A DNA stretch of 64,000 bases, from assembly GCF_027579695.1 (NCBI RefSeq), contig NC_083583.1, positions 21,962,599-22,026,598 of the forward strand, in the 5' to 3' direction. The translations under genes were made by a program, and so were the position numbers. The stretch is from Neoarius graeffei. Its lineage: Eukaryota > Chordata > Actinopteri > Siluriformes > Ariidae. Below are positions 2,446-40,600 of the stretch, piece by piece; position 1 is the stretch's first letter; the number at the start of each line of letters is the position of its first letter. The notes under the pieces are model-generated. The model was not told where the DNA came from. It saw only the letters and a program-made list of their open reading frames with translations, and did no database searches.

Positions 2446-3338
2446 ATGAAAACCAAGGAGCCTCCAAACAGGTCAGAGACAAAGTTGTGGAGAAGTATAG
2501 ATCAGGGTTGGGTTATAAAAAATATCCCACGGAGCACCATTAAATCCATTATAGCAAAATGGAAAGAATATGGCACCACTACAAACCTGACAAGAGAAGG
2601 CTGCCCACCAAAACTCACAGACCAGCCAAGGAGGGCATTAATCAGAGATGCAACAAAGATAACACTGAAGGATCTGCAAAGATCTATAGTGGAGATGGGA
2701 GTATCTGTCCACAGGACCACTTTAAGCTGTACACTCCTCAGAGTGGGGCTTTTATGGAAGAGGGGCCAGAAAAGTCACTGCTTAAGACAACATGTTTTGA
2801 GTTTTCCCAACAGCATATGGCAGACTCCCCTAACACATGGAAGAAGATTCTCTGGTCAAATGAGACTAAAACTGATCTTTTTGGCCATCATGGGAAATGC
2901 CACGTGTGGTGCAAACCCAATGCCCTGAGAACACCATTCCTACAGTGAAGCATGGTGGTGGCAGCATCATGCTGTGGGGATGTTTTTCATCTGCAGGGAC
3001 AGGAAAGCTGGTCAGGACTAAAGGAAAGATGGATGGCACTAAATACAGGGCAATTTTGGAGGAAAACCTGTTTGAGTCAGCCAGAGGTTTGAGACTGGGA
3101 CGAAGGTTCATGTTCCAGCAGGACAATGATCCTAAACATTATTGCTAAAGCTACACTGGAGTGGTTTAAAGGGACACATTTAAATGTCTTGGAATGGCCT
3201 AATCAAAGCCCAGACCTCAATCCAATTGAGAATCTGTGGCATAACTTGAAGATTGCTGTACACCAATACAACCCATCTAACTTGAAGGAGTTGGATCAGT
3301 TTTGCCTTGAGGAATGGGGCAAAAATCCCAGTGGCTAG
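2446..3338 (+). pseudogene. Tc1-like transposase remnant
   Basis: Three overlapping frames together read like a Tc1 transposase: an N-terminal helix-turn-helix part (PRSTIKSIIAKWKEYGTT), the catalytic-domain piece [25 protein letters not shown], and the end LEWPNQSPDLNPIENLWHNL. Frame changes near 2760, 2920 and 3130 break it, so no active enzyme is made. Confidence 0.9.
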
Positions 3339-15700: not shown

Positions 15701-18700
15701 CGGTGGTCGCCATCTTATTACAGCTAAGGTTTGTTCACATTTTCATTTACTTTCGGTCCTCAGGATAAACAAAATGTTATTAAATGTCATTGAAATAACT
15801 TCTTAGTCTGTTGAGACATGACCCGTTATAAATTTGCTGTTACCAGGCAATGACCAAGAACTGTATTATTAGGGTCGGTGTCTGTGTTGTAGCAGTGTAC
15901 TAGCAGCTAGCTGTTAGCACTAGCTAATGTCAACAACATAGCTAGTATGTTACTGTAGCAATGTTTACGTTCAGTCATTTGGATGACTGTTAAAACCTTT
16001 CAGTCTCAAGTTTTTCCTTTACTGTATTTACTAGTTTACTGTAATTATGATCCGGCAGCTATTTACACCGGATCCAGTGTAAATAGCTGCCGGAGCGTGC
16101 TCCGGCTTGCTCCCCCTCAAATTAAGCAGCGCGCTCCGGGAGCAAGCCGGAGCGCGCTGCTTAATTTGAGGGGGAGCAAGCCGGAGCGCGCTCCGGAACC
16201 TCGGCCGGAGCACTCCGGAAGCAAGCCAGAGCACGCTGCTTAATTTGAGGGGGAGCAAGCCGGAGCGCGCTCTGGAACCTCGGCCGGAGCACTCCGGGAG
16301 CAAGCCGGAGCGCACTGCTTAATTTGAGGGGGAGCAAGCCGGAGCGCGCTCCGGCAGCTATTTACACTGGATCCGGTGTCTGTAACACATTTTTTTTTCA
16401 AACTGGTTCTCCCTCTCTGTCTGCAGCATTAGTATGTAGCTTGACCTTCAAAATGGCGGACACCGGGGCGTCACGTGACCCTGTGACGTCAGGTGAAAAA
16501 CCTCAATACCATCCTCTCATCCGAGGATCTCCACTCATGGCTTGAGAACTGCCTTTGTGAATGAATATTCATGAGGAATGTGTTACCTGATTGGCCGGTG
16601 GAAGAGTGAGGTGGGGTGAAGTGGTGCATTATCATTTAAAGGAACAGACACTCAAATCGGCCATTTAGACAGGGTGAGAAGGGAGCTGTGGTGATTTATG
16701 CTTGTGGTATTTTGACCAAAGTACATCACAGACATTTCATTAATACCTCAGGGAACTGGGTCAACTTGTGGAAAAAAGGGGTATAATGCATCACCTTCAA
16801 GTTAAAAAACAAACAAACAAACAAACAAACAAACAAACCAAAAAGAAACACACAACCCACACACACAACCCCATCATATCTGTTCAGAGACTGTGGCACT
16901 AATCAAAAATGGTAACATGAAACTCTCTTATTTCAGTCATAAGGTAATCTATTTATCTTGTTTATAGCTATAAACATCACTAATTGTTAAGTGTTAAAAT
17001 GTAACCCATCATTCAGTCAGGTTAGTTGCTTATCCAAAGGTTTAATATAGATATTTAAACACTGCCTAAAAGGGGAGCTCTTGATGAGTATATGAGCAAA
17101 ATATCACCATGCACCTGTTCCTGCTTAGAGCACAATCACAGCGTATACATATAAAGACTCTCAGGCCCACTTTACACGGGGACGGTCTGAAACAAAAACG
17201 CAAAAGTCCGTTTTCGTTCTCACTTTTTTCCGCGTCTACACTAGGGTTGGGCGGTATCCAAATTTTGATACCTTTAAACCGTCTCTGTGTTTTCCCGGGG
17301 TATACGGTATTACCGAGAAAAAAATAATATTTTGTTTCGGCCTACTGTGTAACGTGCGCCTATGCCTCAAATGTACTATTTAAAAGCAGCATAGCGAATT
17401 GTGTGCATTGTGGTATGGATTAAGCAGCAAAGCGAATTTTGTGCATTGATGAATGGATTAAGAGATATTTCAAAGCATCACGCAACTCTTCCTTCATCTT
17501 GAAAATAGCATTCAACTGTCGTTTACACATGTCTGCGTTGAAACGCATTTGCAGCACTATTTCACCTGCTCCATCAAAAAAAAGTACACGATGAGCAGGA
17601 TCATACCCTTTCAAGCATGGGAAATAAAAAAAAGAAAAAGAATCAACCAATACCCAAGTCCGTTTAGACTGCGCGATAAACCATATTCTTCAGCGCAAAT
17701 GAGGCGAACCTAATTCAAATGCGCGGTAGCTGCACAAGGCAAAATCATATGGGCCCACGTCATGCCATGGCGGGGAAATTAATAATCAAATGGCCTTACC
17801 TTGCTTAAAACGTTGTCTCGATCACATAACTCCTTACAATTATTCCACTTAAATCCATATGGTTTAACACACCCAACAAAGATAGCAAGCGCATTGCTAA
17901 TTCCCACCAGAAACCGAACAGTTTACGCTACGATGTTTTCTTCCGTTTCTTCAGTAGATGACATTTCAAACGTTTATTACCCACATCCCAAATGTCATAC
18001 GTTATATTATTTTACCTTGTTGTTACTCATGTAACCTACTCAAAACACAACTCATTGGAGAGATCTCGTGGAAGTGGAGTACCCCAGGCTATGGTGTGCC
18101 TTAGGGGACATATTAGATTTTTCGTTTGGTTTGAAACCAAAATGCTGCCACACTGCCCATGTTGTATTTTTTTTTTGCCACTAACTCGTTATCTTGACTT
18201 GCCATCTTTCAACCGCGGTCTCAGTCTCTTTTTTTTTTTTTAGATAGGACAGTATAGAGAGACAGGAAATGAGCGGGGGAGAGAGAGAGACGGGATCGGG
18301 AAATAACCTCGGGTCGGAATCGAACCCGGGTCCCCGGATTTATGGTACGGTGCCTTAGCCATCTGAGCCATGACACCCCCGGTCTCAGTCTCTTGCGAAG
18401 CTTTCTGTCAGACTCCAAAATGTCACGCAGGGTTGCCATGGTAACGACATAAACAACCCTGCACGCAATGAAAACTTCTTTAGGAAATTGATAGAATTAG
18501 TGAAAATACGATCACACAGTTATTCGGGATGATCTTCAATTTATTATTTTATATTATGACCTCATGTACTCCATATTTATTTAGATATTATATATTTTTT
18601 TAAAATGACGGTAATGAGACCGATACCGTTGGTACTTTTGGATACCTCGGGATACCTTCTTACCGTAATACCGCCCAACCCTAGTCTACACGACCGTTTT

Positions 18701-30700: not shown

Positions 30701-33700
30701 CCAATAACGATACTTCATTATATCCACATTCACTGGATGTGAGCAATCACATGCTCTGATAGCCTAGTAGTAGCCAATCAGCTCATATACCATGAGTAGA
30801 GAGAAACAAAACGGCGCAGCATGTTGCTGAACCAACCAAGGACGAAATAAAAACTCTACTTGAAAACAAAACCCCAGAAATTATCAAGTATTTAAAAGAA
30901 ACAGAAATAGCTAAAAAATATAGTTCCCTCCCCAATATCTCCTGTTCCACACTCCAGCCCAGTCGGTGGTAGTAGTAATGCACCTTTTAAGTTGGTTTGC
31001 CAACCGCCAAAAACGCTAAAGATGACGAAAACCCCAAAAATACAAAAAAAGGGCAACAAAATATGGAATGAACGTATTTGATGGTAAGAACATATTATTT
31101 TTTGAGAATTATTATTACACTTTTCACAAATTGCTACTGTCATTTCAATGGTTTGTTTACATTCTAAGCAGAAATGATTTTGTTGGACGTTTTGCATCAA
31201 GTTATTTATTGCAAAAAATAAAAATGCTCCGTTTCTCAAAATCTAGTGAATGTGGATAGAATAAAACACTTATTCCACTCAATCTCGTCGTACATGGCTT
31301 ATAGCCGACGAGGCGCATATCAGCTCGCGTACGACTCGATTTCGTCGAATAACTGTCAAATAGTCAAAGTGACTGAGATCACATCCCCCCCAATAATGTG
31401 GACTGATGTGAACATTAACCTGCAATCTTGACCTGTATCTGCATGATCGGCTGGATCGATAACTACATGAATGAACAAGTGTTCCTAATAAAACGAACAG
31501 TGAGTCTTTGCAAAAAAAGCAGGATGGGAATTTCTGGATGCAAAATGGAAATTATACAAAATGCTACAACACTGAGGCACAAACTTGTTATGCACCAGAA
31601 TTCCACTTTAAATTGTACACAATACAGTTTTGGCAATTCATCACTTGTCCAGCTCCAAACACATCACGCAAATGTGATCAGAAGAGAACCAGTTCGAGGA
31701 GAGGTGGAGGGCTCACTAGGTTTTTAATGACGCTTCTTGTTTTAAAAATAAATAAGTAAAGGAACCACCTTGGTAAAGAACACACCATCTAGTATGAGAG
31801 AGTGTAGTGTTTTTGCTGTAGTTCGGGAGGGCTACCTGAAAATGGCGACATAGTTGGGTGTGCTTGGCGACTCGTACTCTTCCATCCAGGCCACAACGTT
31901 GAAGAAGCCGGGCAGGAGAAGGTTAATGGAGGACACAACCACAGGGAGAACCAGCATTCTCGTTTCCTTCCGCAGGTCACTACTGGTAGTGTCCAAATAA
32001 TGCTACAGATAACAGCAGGGGACAGAATGGGACACAGAACTGGAAGCATCAGTTGTCACAGGCCTGCAGGGGCCGAATATGCGCACACAACTTTGGAATT
32101 CGCCCCCACTGACTGTGAGAAATGTAACATTCACTGATAACTTTTTATAAAATGCAGACTGAGAATGGGAGTGACTGTAAAAACAAGGACGCTAATTAAA
32201 AGCACCCGAGCTCAAGGAACAGGAAGTCAAGAGTTCAGTTAAAAGCCACAACACATTGTGCAAAACAGCAGCTTGTACATTATTCAGCCTCTACCATTTT
32301 TTACTGGAATTGAAAAACATAGAACAGGCCATGCCCACTGCAACAAGCAATAAACTGGGAACACGATCAGGGACTTGTTGCTTGCTAATACAAAAGCGTG
32401 AGCAAGCTACATTATGAATATGCTGAATATATGAATATTCTACCCACTTGTGCCAAATACACTGAACAAATGTTTGTGTGTGACAGTATGTTTCCCACCT
32501 GGTACACATAGTCCGAGAAGTAGTACACGCCAAGGGAACACACTACAGTGCTCCCAATGCATATGATCCAGGCCAGCAACTGGATGCACAGAACTGACAC
32601 GCGCCGCAAGACCGGAGACTTCACCTTCTGACGGTTCACCTCTGCCACCAGCTCCTACACACGGCACGCAGAGTGAGAGAGAGGTCTGCACCAGTGATGT
32701 TTGTGTCTATGGATTTGACTTATTACAATATAAATTATTTCAATCATTTCTTTTTTAAGAAATGACCGTGTACGAGTGAGGCTGCTTACTCTGAGCTGAG
32801 TGGTGATGTCTTCAGATTGCAGTTGAACAGAGGATTTCTTGAGAACTTTAAAATCCCAAGAACTGAAGACTTTTATGGCAAGCAGACCTTTGGACCGGTC
32901 AATCCGGAAACTCTGTCCAAAAGACTTGGACATACTGTAAAGAGAGACATGTAAAAGGCAATGCAGTCAGCTGTGTATTATTAATATACTGTACAGATTT
33001 AAAGGGATAGTTCGGGATTTTTGACATGAATCTGTATGGCATCCCCATCAATAGTGTCGTGCAAACACACTGACTTACCCCTGACAGCATCCTGTGAGTC
33101 CAGTTCTTGTCCAGTTTTGGTCCAGACGAAAGTAGTCCGGCAAGTTTGTTGGGGTCACGAAAGTAAAACGTTTTTCGTCTCAAAACAGTATGTGTTCAAA
33201 AGAGTGATATATTTGCATCACAAAACCGTTGTCAAATAAAAAGTCAGACCTCGAAATCGCTTGGCACTATTTTCTCTCCCTTCTTATCACTGCGCGCTGG
33301 TACTTTCGTCTGGACCAAAACTGGACAAGAACTGGACTAAAACTGGACAAGAACTGGACTCACAGGATGCTGTCAGGGGTAAGTCAGTGTGTTTGCACAA
33401 CACTATTGATGGGGATGCCATACAGATTCATGTCAAAAATCCCGAACTATCCCTTTAAGCATCGCCTAAAAGCGGACCTCCCAATTTTTAGCCCTCAATT
33501 TATCACACCGTGAATTAGATTACTAGCTTCAATGTGATGTCACAGTAAGTAAGGAACAGAAAAATACGAGATAAAATTCTTGGATAAAAATTAAAACGTT
33601 ATCAATAAATTTTTTTGACTACAGACATTAGAATTATAACTATATTACACCAACGTATTTGAATGCAGTAATTTAACGTTAATTAGATATACATTTACCT

Positions 33701-34643
33701 TTACTAGGACGTGTTCTTTTTTATAGGAGCACATTAAATATCGCTCTCTAGCGCACTTAGCAGTTAATTTTTCAGGCTTTTGTAATCAATACCAGTACGT
33801 TCACTGTATCATAGAGTATCTTCAGTTAGGGGTGCGAGCGAGCATCCATAAGATGAAAAACTCTGATGCGCCCACAACGTATACTCAACAACTACGGAAA
33901 ATCCCAGCCCTATGGATCGCACCACTGCTCGTCCTGCTGGGCTCGGACTTAAAACAAAACTTTAGGAAACAGAGCGGATTTCACAGTACCGTCATGAAAG
34001 CTATTGTAGTGGAGCCAATCAGAATCGAGGCAGACACGGAAGGACGGAGCACGGAATTGACCTTCACCTTGGTCGACGTTCAAAATTCACTTCGATACCC
34101 ATCATTACCCTTTTTTCTTAGGTATGGAGCTCCGCTATAATATGCAGTCAAGTCTAATAACTGCTGGACTGCCATCAAGGACTCAGACGGTGATTAGATA
34201 AGAGTGAACTGAAACATAGTTTTATTCTCACAAAATGCACTGCAAACACAGGCTTAAAGGAACAGTCACAAAACTGAGATGTACACAATCTTCTCTAAAA
34301 TGTGTTTGATCGGTTAAAAGAGACATATTTGTTGTTTGCTAGTTGCCTAAAACAAATACACTTGTGTGGTTTGACATTACCGTACTAAACTGCATTTAGA
34401 ACGACGGTGAAAATCGGATTCCTTTCCCGAAGTCTGTTTATGGTGAACCTGACCTGTACACGAGGATGATGCAGGTGATGAAGAATGCCATGCCGATGGT
34501 GAAGAAATAGGCAAGAGACATGTTATAGGATAGATGAGTGCCACAGGAATCATTTTTTCTATCATGTTTGCAGTCCTCTGTAAAAGTGTAGTTACTGTAG
34601 TAGCCATAGTACATCAAGGACTCCTTAAAACAACCCTGTGAGT

Positions 34644-34683
<40 letters not shown>

Positions 34684-37600
34684 CGGTAATTGGTACAAAT
34701 TGATAATGGTCACAGAATAATCCTGTAGTGCATTAATCCTCATGTTACATTACATTACAGGCATTTAGCAGACGCTCTTATCCAGGGCAATGTACAACAT
34801 ACCCAAAGCAGCCTGGGGAGCAGGTGGGGGTTAGGTACCTTGCTCAAGGGCACTTCAGCCATTCTTGCTGGTCCAGGGAATCAAACTGGTGACCTTTTGG
34901 TCCCAAAGCTGCTTCTCTAACCATAAGACCATGGCATGTTCTGTTTATGACTTATGTCTTTTGATTTTACAGTAATACAACTAAGATTAAAACAGGTCAA
35001 AATAATAATTTTTTTTTTAGAGTCACCAGTTAACCTAACCTGCATGTCTTTGGACTGTGGGGGAAACCGGAGCACCCGGAGGAAACCCACGCGGACAACA
35101 TGCAAACTCCACACAGAAAGGCCCTCGCCGGCCACGGGGCTCGAACCCGGACCTTCTTGCTGTGAGGCGACAGCGCTAACCACTACACCACCGTGCTGCC
35201 TGCATTAATACTACAATTACAAAAGTGTAAGTTATCTTTGCCAAGGGCACGGACACAACCCCATACCATGACACACCCTGGCTTTTGGACTCATCTCATC
35301 TCATTATCTCTAGCCGCTTTATCCTTCTACAGGGTCGCAGGCAAGCTGGAGCCTATCCCAGCTGACTACGGGCGAAAGGCGGGGTACACCCTGGACAAGT
35401 CGCCAGGTCATCACAGGGCTGACACATAGACACAGACAACCATTCACACTCACATTCACACCTACGGTCAATTTAGAGTCACCAGTTAACCTAACCTACA
35501 TGTCTTTGGACTGTGGGGGAAACCGGAGCACCCGGAGGAAACCCACGCGGACACGGGGAGAACATCCAAACTCCACACAGAAAGGCCCTCGCCGGCCACG
35601 GGGCTCGAACCCAGGACCTTCTTGCTGTGAGGCGACAGCGCTAACCACTACACCACCGTGCTGCCTGCATTAATACTGCAATTACAAAAGTGTAAGTTAT
35701 CTTTGCCAAGGGCACGGACACAACCCCATACCATGACACACCCTGGCTTTTGGACTGATTGCTGGTAAATGTCTGGATGGTCGTTTCTGTCTGTGGTCCA
35801 GAGCACACGGCGTCCATTTCTTATCCAACCAAAAAAAACCCACACCAGGAATACAGATTCAGTTTTAACTGGTATTTGTGGATGTAATTCTGTATTGTAG
35901 TGCTTACTACAATATGGCCCATCTGTGCCCATGTGCCCACTACAGGACATTTATAGGGCACAGTGCCTCTGCCACGCCACAAACATCATTAGAGACTGAT
36001 CACACTCCAGTCACCATCTTTTCATTCTGCTGCCCTCTGGAAGGCGCTTCAGGTCCTTAAAAAAAATCTCGCACCTCCAGACTTAAGAACCGTTTTTATC
36101 CAAGTGCTATTAGAGAACTAAACTCTAAAGAACTGATCTTTTGGAGTGTGCAATATGATCAGTCCTGTGTAATATGCACTTTATTTACTGTTCTTGTGAT
36201 TGTCCCCTATGTATGGCTTTTACCTCACCTTTTATTGTCTTAGTGTTTTATTATTATCTTTTGATGTTTTTTTTATGTTAAGGTTTCTTATGATCTCTTT
36301 GTGTTTTTATATGATCCACTAGAGAAATAGAATTTCGTTGTACATTGTGCAATGACAATAAAAGGAAATTGGAATGTGGTTATATGAGCTATAGATGAAT
36401 GACTGTTCTTGATACAGCGCCATTTGAGGGATCAGAGATCACAGGTGTTCAGCTTAGGCTTGTGCCCTTGCCCTTTATGCACCAAAACTCCTCCAGATTC
36501 CTTGAATCGTTTAATGATATTATGCATCATAGAGGGTGAAATATTCAAATCCCTTCCTATCTTTCTTTGAGGAACATTGTTTTTAAACATTTCAATAATT
36601 TTCTCACCCGTTTGTTGACAAACTGGAGATCCTGGGCCCATCTTTGCTCCTCAAAGACTAAGCCTTTCCTGGATACCGATTTTGTATCAAATTATGATTA
36701 CAGTCAATCACCTGTTGACATCACCAGTTTCAAATCGCATCATTATGTAATTGTTTCACCTCATTACTAGCCCCAAACTGCCCCATCCCAACTTTTTTTG
36801 GAATGTGTTACAGGCCCAAAACACAGGAAATGGATGTATATTAACAAACAAAATGAAGTTGATCAGACAAAACATGAAATATCTTGGGTTCATACTGTCT
36901 GCAATGAAAGATTTAGGAGAAAAAAAAATCACTGCTTTCTTTTTTTTTTATTGGTTTTTCCCATACCATACCAACTTTTTTGACTTGAAGTTGTACAACA
37001 AACTCTATGAGGTCCTCTTCTTTACACCAGAGCATCATACTGGCACATACAATCTATACCAACAAAGTTTCTCAGCAAGGTATTGGGCCAAAAGGAACTG
37101 CCAGAACAACTTCAATGACCTTGATCGTACAAGTATCTGAAACTGTACTGGAGGATGAACACCATTCTTCCCAAAGCATTCCCTCATTTGGTGTTTTGAT
37201 TAAGGAGCTGTCCAACATGTCTCTTAAAAATCTCCTGCAGTGTTCAGTTGGGCTGAGATCTGGTAAATGAGACATATGAGCACATAAGCATACATTATGT
37301 TCATACGGAGTCTTACCGTCCCAGTGAGCACCTCGAGGCCATATTGTACACATGAGTCTGAGGTCTGTGTCTCTTCATAGGGCTGACGTTCGTGCCGCAC
37401 AGCTTGGGGGATCACCAGGAAGAACCCCGTCACCATGAAGAGGAAAACATTAAAGAAGAACAGCTTCCTGAGGAAGACGAAGTAGGAGAGGACACCTGTC
37501 CCGAAACGACCACTCACTGTCTTCAGAGCCGTCTGCCATAACCGCAGTGAGGAGACGAAAGACAACCAGCTGTACCAGCTTTGTCTCAGAGTCTGATAGA

Positions 37601-40600
37601 CACAGAGGGGAAAAAAAGTGAAAAATCAATCCCTTAAAGGAACAGTCCACCGTACTTCCATAATGAAATATGCTCTTATCTGAATTGAGACGAGCTGCTC
37701 CGTACCTATCCGAGCTTTGCGCGACCTCCCAGTCAGTCAGACGCAGTCAGACGCGCTGTCACTCCTGTTAGCAATGTAGCTAGGCTCAGTATGGCCAATG
37801 GTATTTTTTGGGGCTGTAGTTAGATGCGACCAAACTCTTCCGCGTTTTTCCTGTTTACATAGGTTTATATGACCAGTGACATGAAACAAGTTCAGTTACA
37901 CAAATTGAAACGTAGCGATTTTCTATGCTATGGAAAGTCCGCACTATAATGACAGGTGCACTAACACCTTCTGCGCGCTTCGGCAGCGCATTGATATCTG
38001 AGCTCCGTATCAATGCGCTGCCGAAGCGCGCAGAAGGTGTTAGTACGCCTGTCATTATAGTGCGGACTTTCCATAGCATAGAAAATCGCTACGTTTCAAT
38101 TTGTGTAACTGAACTTGTTTCATGTCACTGGTCATATAAACCTATGTAAACAGGAAAAATGCGGAAGAGTTTGGTCGCATCTAACTACAGCCCCAAAAAA
38201 TACCATTGGCCATACTGAGCCTAGCTACATTGCTAACAGGAGTGACAGCGCGTCTGACTGCGTCTGACTGACTGGGAGGTCGCGCAAAGCTCGGAGAGGT
38301 ACGGAGCAGCTCGTCTCAATTCAGATAAGAGCATATTTCATTATGGAAGTACGGTGGACTGTTCCTTTAAACTTCAACACTAATAGCAACATTATCAGCA
38401 TTTCAGTTATAAACATTGTTACAAATTACAGTACAACAAAACATTATACTATCAAATACAATCCTATCAGTTGTATTAAACTAAAAAGACTGACAGAAGT
38501 GCATTTTAAAAGCACTGAGGTTTGGCAACATGGCGCTGCAATTTACAACTGACGCGAGTTGTGTGTTAAAGGAGAACTGAAGGCAATTTTTTTTATTATC
38601 AAAATTCTATTTCTCATTTTATTAAATATAGGAATGCATTTTTGATAGCAGGGCGGCACGGTGGTGTAGTGGTTAGCGCTGTCGCCTCACAGCAAGAAGG
38701 TCCGGGTTCGAGCCCCGTGGCCGGCGAGGGCCTTTCTGTGTGGAGTTTGCATGTTCTCCCCGTGTCCGCGTGGGTTTCCTCCGGGTGCTCCGGTTTCCCC
38801 TACAGTCCAAAGACATGCAGGTTAGGTTAACTGGTGACTCTAAATTGACCGTAGGTGTGAATGTGAGTGTGAATGGTTGTCTGTGTCAGCCCTGTGATGA
38901 CCTGGCGACTTGTCCAGGGTGTACCCCGCCTTTCACCCGTAGTCAGCTGGGATAGGCTCCAGCTTGCCTGCGACCCTGGAGAAGGATAAAGCGGCTACAG
39001 ATAATGAGATGAGATTTTTGATAGCCATTTTGTCACTGCTATAGCAAGTTATGAGTGTTTGAAATATGCTCTGTAATATATCAGTCCATATGTCAAAGCA
39101 ATGGCCGTAAACGAGATTCCTTGAGACCTGTGCGAGACATCGCAGGATGGAAGTAAAACGTACAGCGGAAATCAAAGTGACCAACATCTGCCAACGTTGT
39201 CAAAAGACGCGCGCGCCCTCTTTCGAATGCTGACGTAATCAAGCCAGAAGTTTTGTTTGTTTTGATAGCAATCAGGAAAGTTTGAAAAAAGTCGGCAGTA
39301 ATCGTCATTTAAACTCGTTTTTGTGCAATACTTCGTTTGGAAAACAGTTTTCAAAATGGCGGCACTGACACCTGGCTGACACTTCACGTTTCGAAGTCTC
39401 GCGAAGATCGCGCGGATAAGCGACGCCTGCTGTGGACCAAACTAACTAAATTCAACATGGCTAAAAACTGAACGGGCCAATAAGTATAATATTTAATTGC
39501 AATTAGTTGCCAATACGAGTCACGATATAAAGTTAATAAAACCGAAAACATAATTGAATAACACGTTAATTAAGAAATAAAGCAAGTTTAAAAATGACTT
39601 CAATTCTCCTTTAATGTAGGCTGTTCATGAAACATTTATTTCTTTGGTTTCTTGTGCTTGGTTAGTAAATATCACATGCAAATGCCCATCATAGACATTA
39701 GATTATTATAAACGTGTTTTTGCACTGTAAATAATCAAATTCTTTCATCCAGTCACATTTTCACTCCTAAGCCGAGTAACATGGAGCTTGTTATAATTTA
39801 GTTGAGAGAAGAATGTGCACTGCTGCTGTAGATCTCTGGACATTCATGAGACTTTATTTTCAGAAGGTTAACCATCAGTTTAGCTCACGCCAACCTTACA
39901 CTGAGCCTTCTAGCCAGGCTTGGGACCAGCGCTGAGTATGCACTGCCTTGTACAACCCCAGTGACTGGGTATTTTACCTAATCTGCACATCTTTTAACTG
40001 TGGTGGAAACCGGCGCACCCGGAGGAAAACCCACACAGACACGGGGAGAACATGCAAACTCCACGCAGAAAGGCCCCCCGTCAGCCATGGGGTTCAACCC
40101 AGAACCATCTTGCTGTGAGGTGACAGTGCTAACCACTACACCACTGTGCCACCCTATCATTAGATGATATATAAGCATGTACCGTTTCGATTTTGGGCAC
40201 AATATAGCATAAATATTTGGACATTGTTTCTATTCCAGTGGATATGCATGAAAATCTGGGGCATCCATTCCAACGCAGCGCTAATAGCTTGGTCGAGAGC
40301 AAGTGAGAATGCATGTCCATGAGGTGCTTTGCAGTATGCAAAATTGCTCAGAGTTTGGAGAGAGGGACTCACAATTAAAATATGATCTCTGAAGTGGCTG
40401 CAGCAGGGGACTCGGTTGAGGTAGGTAGAGCGGCCAGTTTTATTCGAAGCCAAACGTCTGTGTGAGAAAAAGATAGAACGATTATATTACACACGGCAGC
40501 ATATCCACAAACGCCACCACATTACACAATACGACTTGCAATGAGCATGATATGCTTCGAGATCAACATTTTCTTTGACATACAGTACTGTGCAAAAGTC

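Follow-up and report, generated by a model that had tools for sequence, protein, structure and literature searches.

Fish genomes reportedly carry Angel elements, short inverted repeats of teleosts that are able to fold back on themselves and are said to be shorter than the palindrome described here; they are likened to it by description, not by sequence. A long perfect palindrome is expected to be unstable, and we know of no settled account of what keeps the two arms of a palindromic transposon alike. The Angel work (Izsvak et al. 1999) is cited alongside the definition of T2-MITEs, whose signature is a TTAA site with the terminus AGGRR, and which are presumed to belong to Kolobok (PMC6004289). 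RR...YY termini set Kolobok apart from piggyBac, and a P2X7 part occurs in the Kolobok protein KolX, according to the sections cited of PMC9587614. Galileo offers a precedent for exchange between arms, as sequence inserted into one of its inverted repeats may later become part of its partner repeat (PMC4168063).

We analysed a window of 64,000 nt from Neoarius graeffei that contains a near-perfect palindrome of 729 bp. We consider it likely that this is a non-autonomous DNA transposon, a long palindromic MITE of Kolobok/T2 type that arose by internal deletion and whose arms exchange sequence. The element is of an ordinary kind, in an unusually clean palindromic form.

Structure and genomic copies

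The palindrome occupies positions 37638 to 38366 of the window, exactly the limits and length given in the preliminary description. Counted with the flanking TTAA, its arms (37634 to 37996 and 38008 to 38370) are 363 nt each, 99% complementary and separated by 11 nt, with mismatches at four pairs of positions (37708/38296, 37844/38160, 37957/38047, and 37959/38045). Outward, pairing ends right after the TTAA on both sides (a flank extension of 4). Inward, with one 1-nt gap and one extra mismatch, it reaches the GAGCTC at the centre, and the palindrome is therefore nearly spacerless. The ratio of observed to expected CpG is 0.99 in the palindrome and 0.57 across the window, and a value of 0.98 is attained by about 5% of 729-bp segments. 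The features discussed below are as follows.

37593 to 37594, minus strand: acceptor-like AG of a putative TMC exon, with a protein match at about 37398 to 37571
37634 to 37637, no strand: TTAA flank, putative target-site copy
37638 to 37996, plus strand: left arm, 359 nt, with terminus AGGAACAGTCCACC
37855 to 38079, minus strand: mirror 74-codon ORF, overlapping the plus-strand one, read as chance
37925 to 38149, plus strand: 74-codon ORF across the centre, read as chance
37997 to 38007, no strand: 11-nt centre TCTGAGCTCCG around GAGCTC, common to the best 40 copies in either orientation, in some slightly changed
38008 to 38366, minus strand: right arm, the left arm inverted, with 4 mismatches in 359
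38367 to 38370, no strand: TTAA flank, putative target-site copy

The two ORFs had been described as the same 74-codon frame, encoded once in each arm. A frame of this length is present on both strands, since the symmetry of the palindrome makes every frame appear on both, but the two proteins are not identical and differ at the centre. Nor does each arm hold one, as both ORFs span the centre and overlap each other. The idea of a shared gene was dropped: a Pfam search of the ORFs gave no match, and an ATG ORF of at least 74 codons is present in 11.05% of 2,000 artificial palindromes with dinucleotide-shuffled arms. Both ORFs are probably chance by-products, though a figure of 11% is not proof.

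A count of genome copies and an alignment of arms within and between copies had been proposed, and both were run. The fish's own genome (2.34 Gb) yielded 878 candidates, of which the best 40 (the window copy and 39 others) were scored and compared. These best 40 are 98-99% identical over bases 1-737 of the query (3-737 in one copy). TTAA stands at both ends in 38 of them, which upholds the earlier proposal that the palindrome moved as a unit with TTAA duplication; one exception has TTAG at one end, and the other lacks its first two bases. With its 729 bp, inverted repeats, a near-chance ORF and 7,705 exact 32-nt ends in the genome (3,908 + 3,797; 0 and 0 for the reversed-pattern control), the family has the make-up of a MITE. 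Among the 80 flanks of the best 40 there are six flank-to-flank matches, including one inside a single copy; all flank-matching copies were retained. For two copies, L030 and L052, the flanks correspond on either side, and a single insertion may have been duplicated there.

To obtain a sample under lighter selection, we took every element behind the 100 places listed first on contig C1, over about 41 Mb of that single contig and with one exact end required. It gave 68 elements, with both ends located in 52, and the modal length with TTAA was 737 (16/52, counting duplicates of the same insertion). Six C1 loci between 20.9 and 28.7 Mb (L072, L073, L076, L077, L105, and L118) represent one insertion with common flanks, 97-100% alike over 100 bp in the printed pairs, and the element at these loci therefore sits inside a larger duplicated unit. 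Searches beyond this genome gave no matches for the left arm in a plasmid collection, for a 31-base pattern in genomes of bacteria and archaea, or for a second pattern in viral contigs. Nine viral stretches with 16-mer matches were rejected as relatives, their likeness to the element ending at 16-17 nt; eight of the nine hold one related stretch, and one differs.

Host locus and predicted hairpin

The minus-strand ORF adjoining the palindrome matches PDB TMC-1 (E 5.8e-6 for residues 19-76), with TMC-2 a weaker match (E 0.0079). Pfam returned no match for this ORF fragment, and a search of the window for a TMC motif gave none. The gene and the repeats look fish-like. The element's TTAA is 39 nt upstream of the acceptor-like AG (37594-37593). 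On the strength of the TMC-1 match and this nearby AG, we infer that the palindrome copy landed in an intron of a putative TMC-family gene. The preliminary description had placed it in the tmc6 pre-mRNA, and a putative intron of a TMC-family gene agrees with that placement as far as the family goes, although Pfam gave no match. Other features of the window include a THAP-domain ORF at 1743-2078 on the minus strand (PF05485, E 8.5e-11), an ORF at 2437-2928 with weak, below-cut-off matches to Tc1/Sleeping Beauty-type transposase domains, overlapped by a repeat that recurs near 50.4-51.2 kb, and three 79-nt units in tandem at 16131-16367, with many short inverted repeats.

A copy in such an intron would give an RNA hairpin of about 360 bp, any role of which is a candidate one. 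The single long hairpin envisaged earlier agrees with prediction: the RNA fold of the palindrome is -720.5 kcal/mol, beyond all 20 shuffles (mean -205; 0/20 as stable), and for the DNA fold 0/20 shuffles are likewise as stable.

Superfamily and origin of the palindromic form

Both ends of the palindrome begin with AGGAA, which has the AGGRR (RR...YY) form given for T2-MITEs and Kolobok in the cited sections, and they adjoin the TTAA target site seen in 38/40 of the best copies. Within the window, TTAAAGGRR occurs 11 times against 3.66 expected, above all 100 shuffles. Sites with paired ends belong to the palindrome and to the intervals 32999-33458 and 38566-39614; the site at 34254 has the same first 14 nt as the palindrome, and those at 3166 and 50776, which lie within a repeat pair, are probably not element ends. 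The element at 32999-33458 is a MITE whose inverted repeats of 127 bp show 2 mismatches and whose ends are TTAAAGGGATAGT. At 38566-39614, the inverted ends (TTAAAGGAG...) are 25 bp long and 88% alike, and a SINE-like repeat is nested in the element.

We take PF20478 (P2RX7_C) to be the P2X7 part of the Kolobok protein KolX; of 150 candidates scored in the genome, 124 match it. Thirty of these loci were cut out. In two (L149 and L151), a near-copy of the 39614 terminus lies about 800 nt from the match (38 and 39 of 40 nt, one end each); given this near-identical right end, 38566-39614 may be Kolobok-derived. L156 also carries the TTAAAGGGATAGT end, and a KolX-like match lies about 1.5 kb from it. 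At another KolX-like locus, L146, the end of the palindrome family is present and points away from the PF20478 match; none of the 30 loci connects a KolX-like match with the ends of the palindrome family. A single pattern (terminus plus non-family bases) used to seek an autonomous partner gave two matches, neither autonomous as seen: L058 looks like a plain family copy, and L057 has a diverged arm followed by other sequence. In L057 and L127, the diverged family arm is followed by a long frame of 1,513 aa from stop to stop, gypsy-like in appearance. A transposase from another Kolobok element would have moved the palindrome into TTAA sites, and some of the further copies came from duplication of larger units.

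Other accounts of the palindrome were weighed against this one. Palindromes that look perfect are a known type of artefact, and a fold-back during assembly or sequencing could in principle have produced this one. The limits of the palindrome, however, coincide exactly with TTAA, and the 40 scored copies lie at differing places with common ends (two slightly changed) and a common centre (some slightly changed). Because these copies match throughout while their flanks are mostly unrelated, an assembly artefact is unlikely as the source, and we give fold-back of either kind almost no credence. The palindrome might instead be maintained as a selected RNA hairpin in the putative TMC intron, as a small-RNA or ADAR substrate or in the control of splicing. 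Its predicted fold and an acceptor-like AG only 39 nt off speak for such a role; with the family's end scattered 7,705 times through the genome and Rfam returning nothing for the palindrome at E 0.1, we think it very unlikely. A palindromic MITE of piggyBac type would also have TTAA flanks, and a few piggyBac families encode a KolX-like C-terminal protein too (PMC9587614, in the section cited), so that the PF20478 matches are compatible with piggyBac. Against this, piggyBac termini are not of the RR type, whereas the palindrome begins with AG, and more fully with the AGG that falls on the Kolobok side of this division (PMC9587614, same section). The enrichment of TTAAAGGRR in the window also counts against piggyBac, which we regard as improbable.

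For a Kolobok/T2-type element, the palindromic form has a ready source in its longer relatives. In these, the same arms of about 350 nt enclose about 140 nt of interior sequence in the 860-bp class and about 300 nt in L059; L064 reaches 1,677 bp, some of it possibly another insertion. Because the arms are the same, the palindrome was probably made by internal deletion from a progenitor with long inverted repeats, a direction of change that we infer. Such a progenitor would have had terminal inverted repeats of about 350 nt flanking a longer interior, and repeated internal deletions would have shrunk this interior until the 11-nt asymmetric centre remained. One class has a centre of about 30 nt (33 pattern matches at no more than 2 mismatches; 1 for the reversed control). 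A snap-back origin, from a class whose centre contains GGCC, was also considered. By eye, plain internal deletion takes equally many changes, and L062, with arms of two types, resembles a recombinant and is atypical of its class. We examined 12/32 further matches of the L062 class; four of the 12 had one arm unaligned (123-149 differences) and were unused, and the duplication states obtained with these 12 were unreliable and excluded from use.

Exchange of sequence between arms

The best 40 copies have in common an asymmetric centre, found in either orientation and slightly changed in some, which makes arm conversion testable. Each copy was oriented by its centre, and variants were compared at mirrored arm positions, with CpG sites kept separate because they mutate repeatedly. 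From the C1 sample, 25/52 elements were used after dropping duplicated insertions, two elements without the centre, and other lengths. Compared with 2,000 substitution-matched shuffles, mirrored non-CpG variants were in excess in the top 40 (17 vs 2.9 expected, shuffle maximum 9), in the 25 C1 copies (16 vs 3.6, maximum 10), and in the pooled set (25 vs 8.4, maximum 16). Mirrored CpG variants showed a slight excess inside the shuffle range in all three (24 vs 19.2, maximum 25; 26 vs 22.7, maximum 27; 36 vs 32.6, maximum 38).

Variants were also found in both arms of one copy more often than under random arm pairing (1,000 permutations), with 50 vs 21.8 in the top 40 and 38 vs 14.9 in C1 at all sites, and 34 vs 14.0 (maximum 23) and 23 vs 9.5 (maximum 17), respectively, at non-CpG sites. 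This permutation breaks subfamily structure too, and the both-arm excess therefore does not count events; part of it may reflect old symmetric subfamilies, not many events. Among copy-private variants in the pooled set, three are in both arms and 98 in one. From the mirrored non-CpG excess and the symmetry within copies, we conclude that sequence passes between arms, as shown statistically at non-CpG sites in two samples.

The homogenisation achieved by this exchange is weak. At non-CpG sites the within-copy deficit F is 0.24 (top 40) and 0.20 (C1), meaning that arms differ 20-24% less than random; at CpG sites it is 0.07 and 0.13. The arms of the top 40 differ by 6.35 per 363 within a copy and by 7.5-7.8 between copies, and with its 4 mismatches the window copy ranks with the more symmetric ones. 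So small a deficit indicates that exchange alone does not hold the arms identical, and their high identity is mainly due to recent spread. Recent origin and arm conversion had been offered as alternatives; arm distances and mirrored variants indicate that both hold, with recency explaining most. Could the arms be alike through youth alone, without transfer between them, the mirrored variants being recurrent mutations? The nearness of the within-copy difference to that between copies fits this idea, as do mirrored CpG variants inside the range of chance recurrence. Against it stand the mirrored non-CpG variants, above all 2,000 shuffles in both samples, and site 75, where the same two rare alleles occur on both arms (7 and 7; 4 and 5 copies). 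We judge youth alone to be unlikely.

Several further observations bear on exchange between arms and copies. Among scorable C1 copies with the palindrome's centre, 17 have a 10-bp unit in both arms, four (L063, L084, L089, and L124) have it in one arm, and two (L096 and L126) lack it. A tally that took in all 52 elements (both arms in 17, one in 4, 'neither' in 15, with 16 unscored) was discarded as overstating concordance: 14 of the 15 'neither' elements are of other centre classes, and three are one duplicated insertion. The change is one of a tandem-repeat unit and could be recurrent slippage. The four-gamete test was violated in 13/15 pairs of six chosen non-CpG sites across 80 arms. One member of the six-locus group, L118, has its centre reversed relative to its five same-flank partners; its outer markers (sites 96 and 109) are still those of the group, and its differences from them lie inside, at sites 211, 247, and 340. 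This one case fits an inner replacement from another copy, or an inversion plus conversion, after the insertion was duplicated. Within groups with common flanks, symmetric post-insertion changes at L073 site 354, L077 site 307 (both CpG sites), and L071 site 112 (own count) were set aside as possible chance doubles. As to mechanism, the arms probably pair with each other as a hairpin or cruciform, or else with further copies lying in either orientation, and repair or recombination would then carry sequence across.

More tentatively, and short of calling it probable, we propose that near-spacerless 0.7-kb palindromes are retained in their thousands by a vertebrate genome, their arms and copies exchanging sequence after insertion and their centre acting as an orientation tag. 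If this is true, arm conversion and central inversion could be counted across the genome by means of the tag. With its thousands of copies, its scattered insertions, some of them duplicated, and its fixed orientation tag, the family makes a useful natural assay. It would allow the rates at which arms are converted and the centre is inverted or revised to be measured in a vertebrate from sequence alone.

Comparison with known systems

A literature search with limited journal coverage turned up no account of arms exchanging sequence in a palindromic MITE with dispersed copies. The T2-MITEs of Xenopus resemble the palindrome in their TTAA site, terminal AGGRR, non-autonomous nature, and young, homogeneous members; the palindrome differs from them, as they appear in the cited part of PMC6004289, in its arms of about 350 nt and its almost absent spacer, and the string 'palindrom' has 0 occurrences in the main text of that paper. 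Made1 / hsa-mir-548 is an example of a MITE turned small-RNA source (PMC1784062, in the part cited), to which the palindrome is likened as a MITE from its sequence alone. The Galileo and Foldback-like transposons of Drosophila have long, dynamic inverted repeats, as the palindrome does, but Galileo belongs to the P superfamily and makes 7-bp target duplications, in contrast to the TTAA of the palindrome (PMC4168063, in the sections cited). The palindrome is thus foldback-like in its working only, with sequence passing statistically between its inverted arms.
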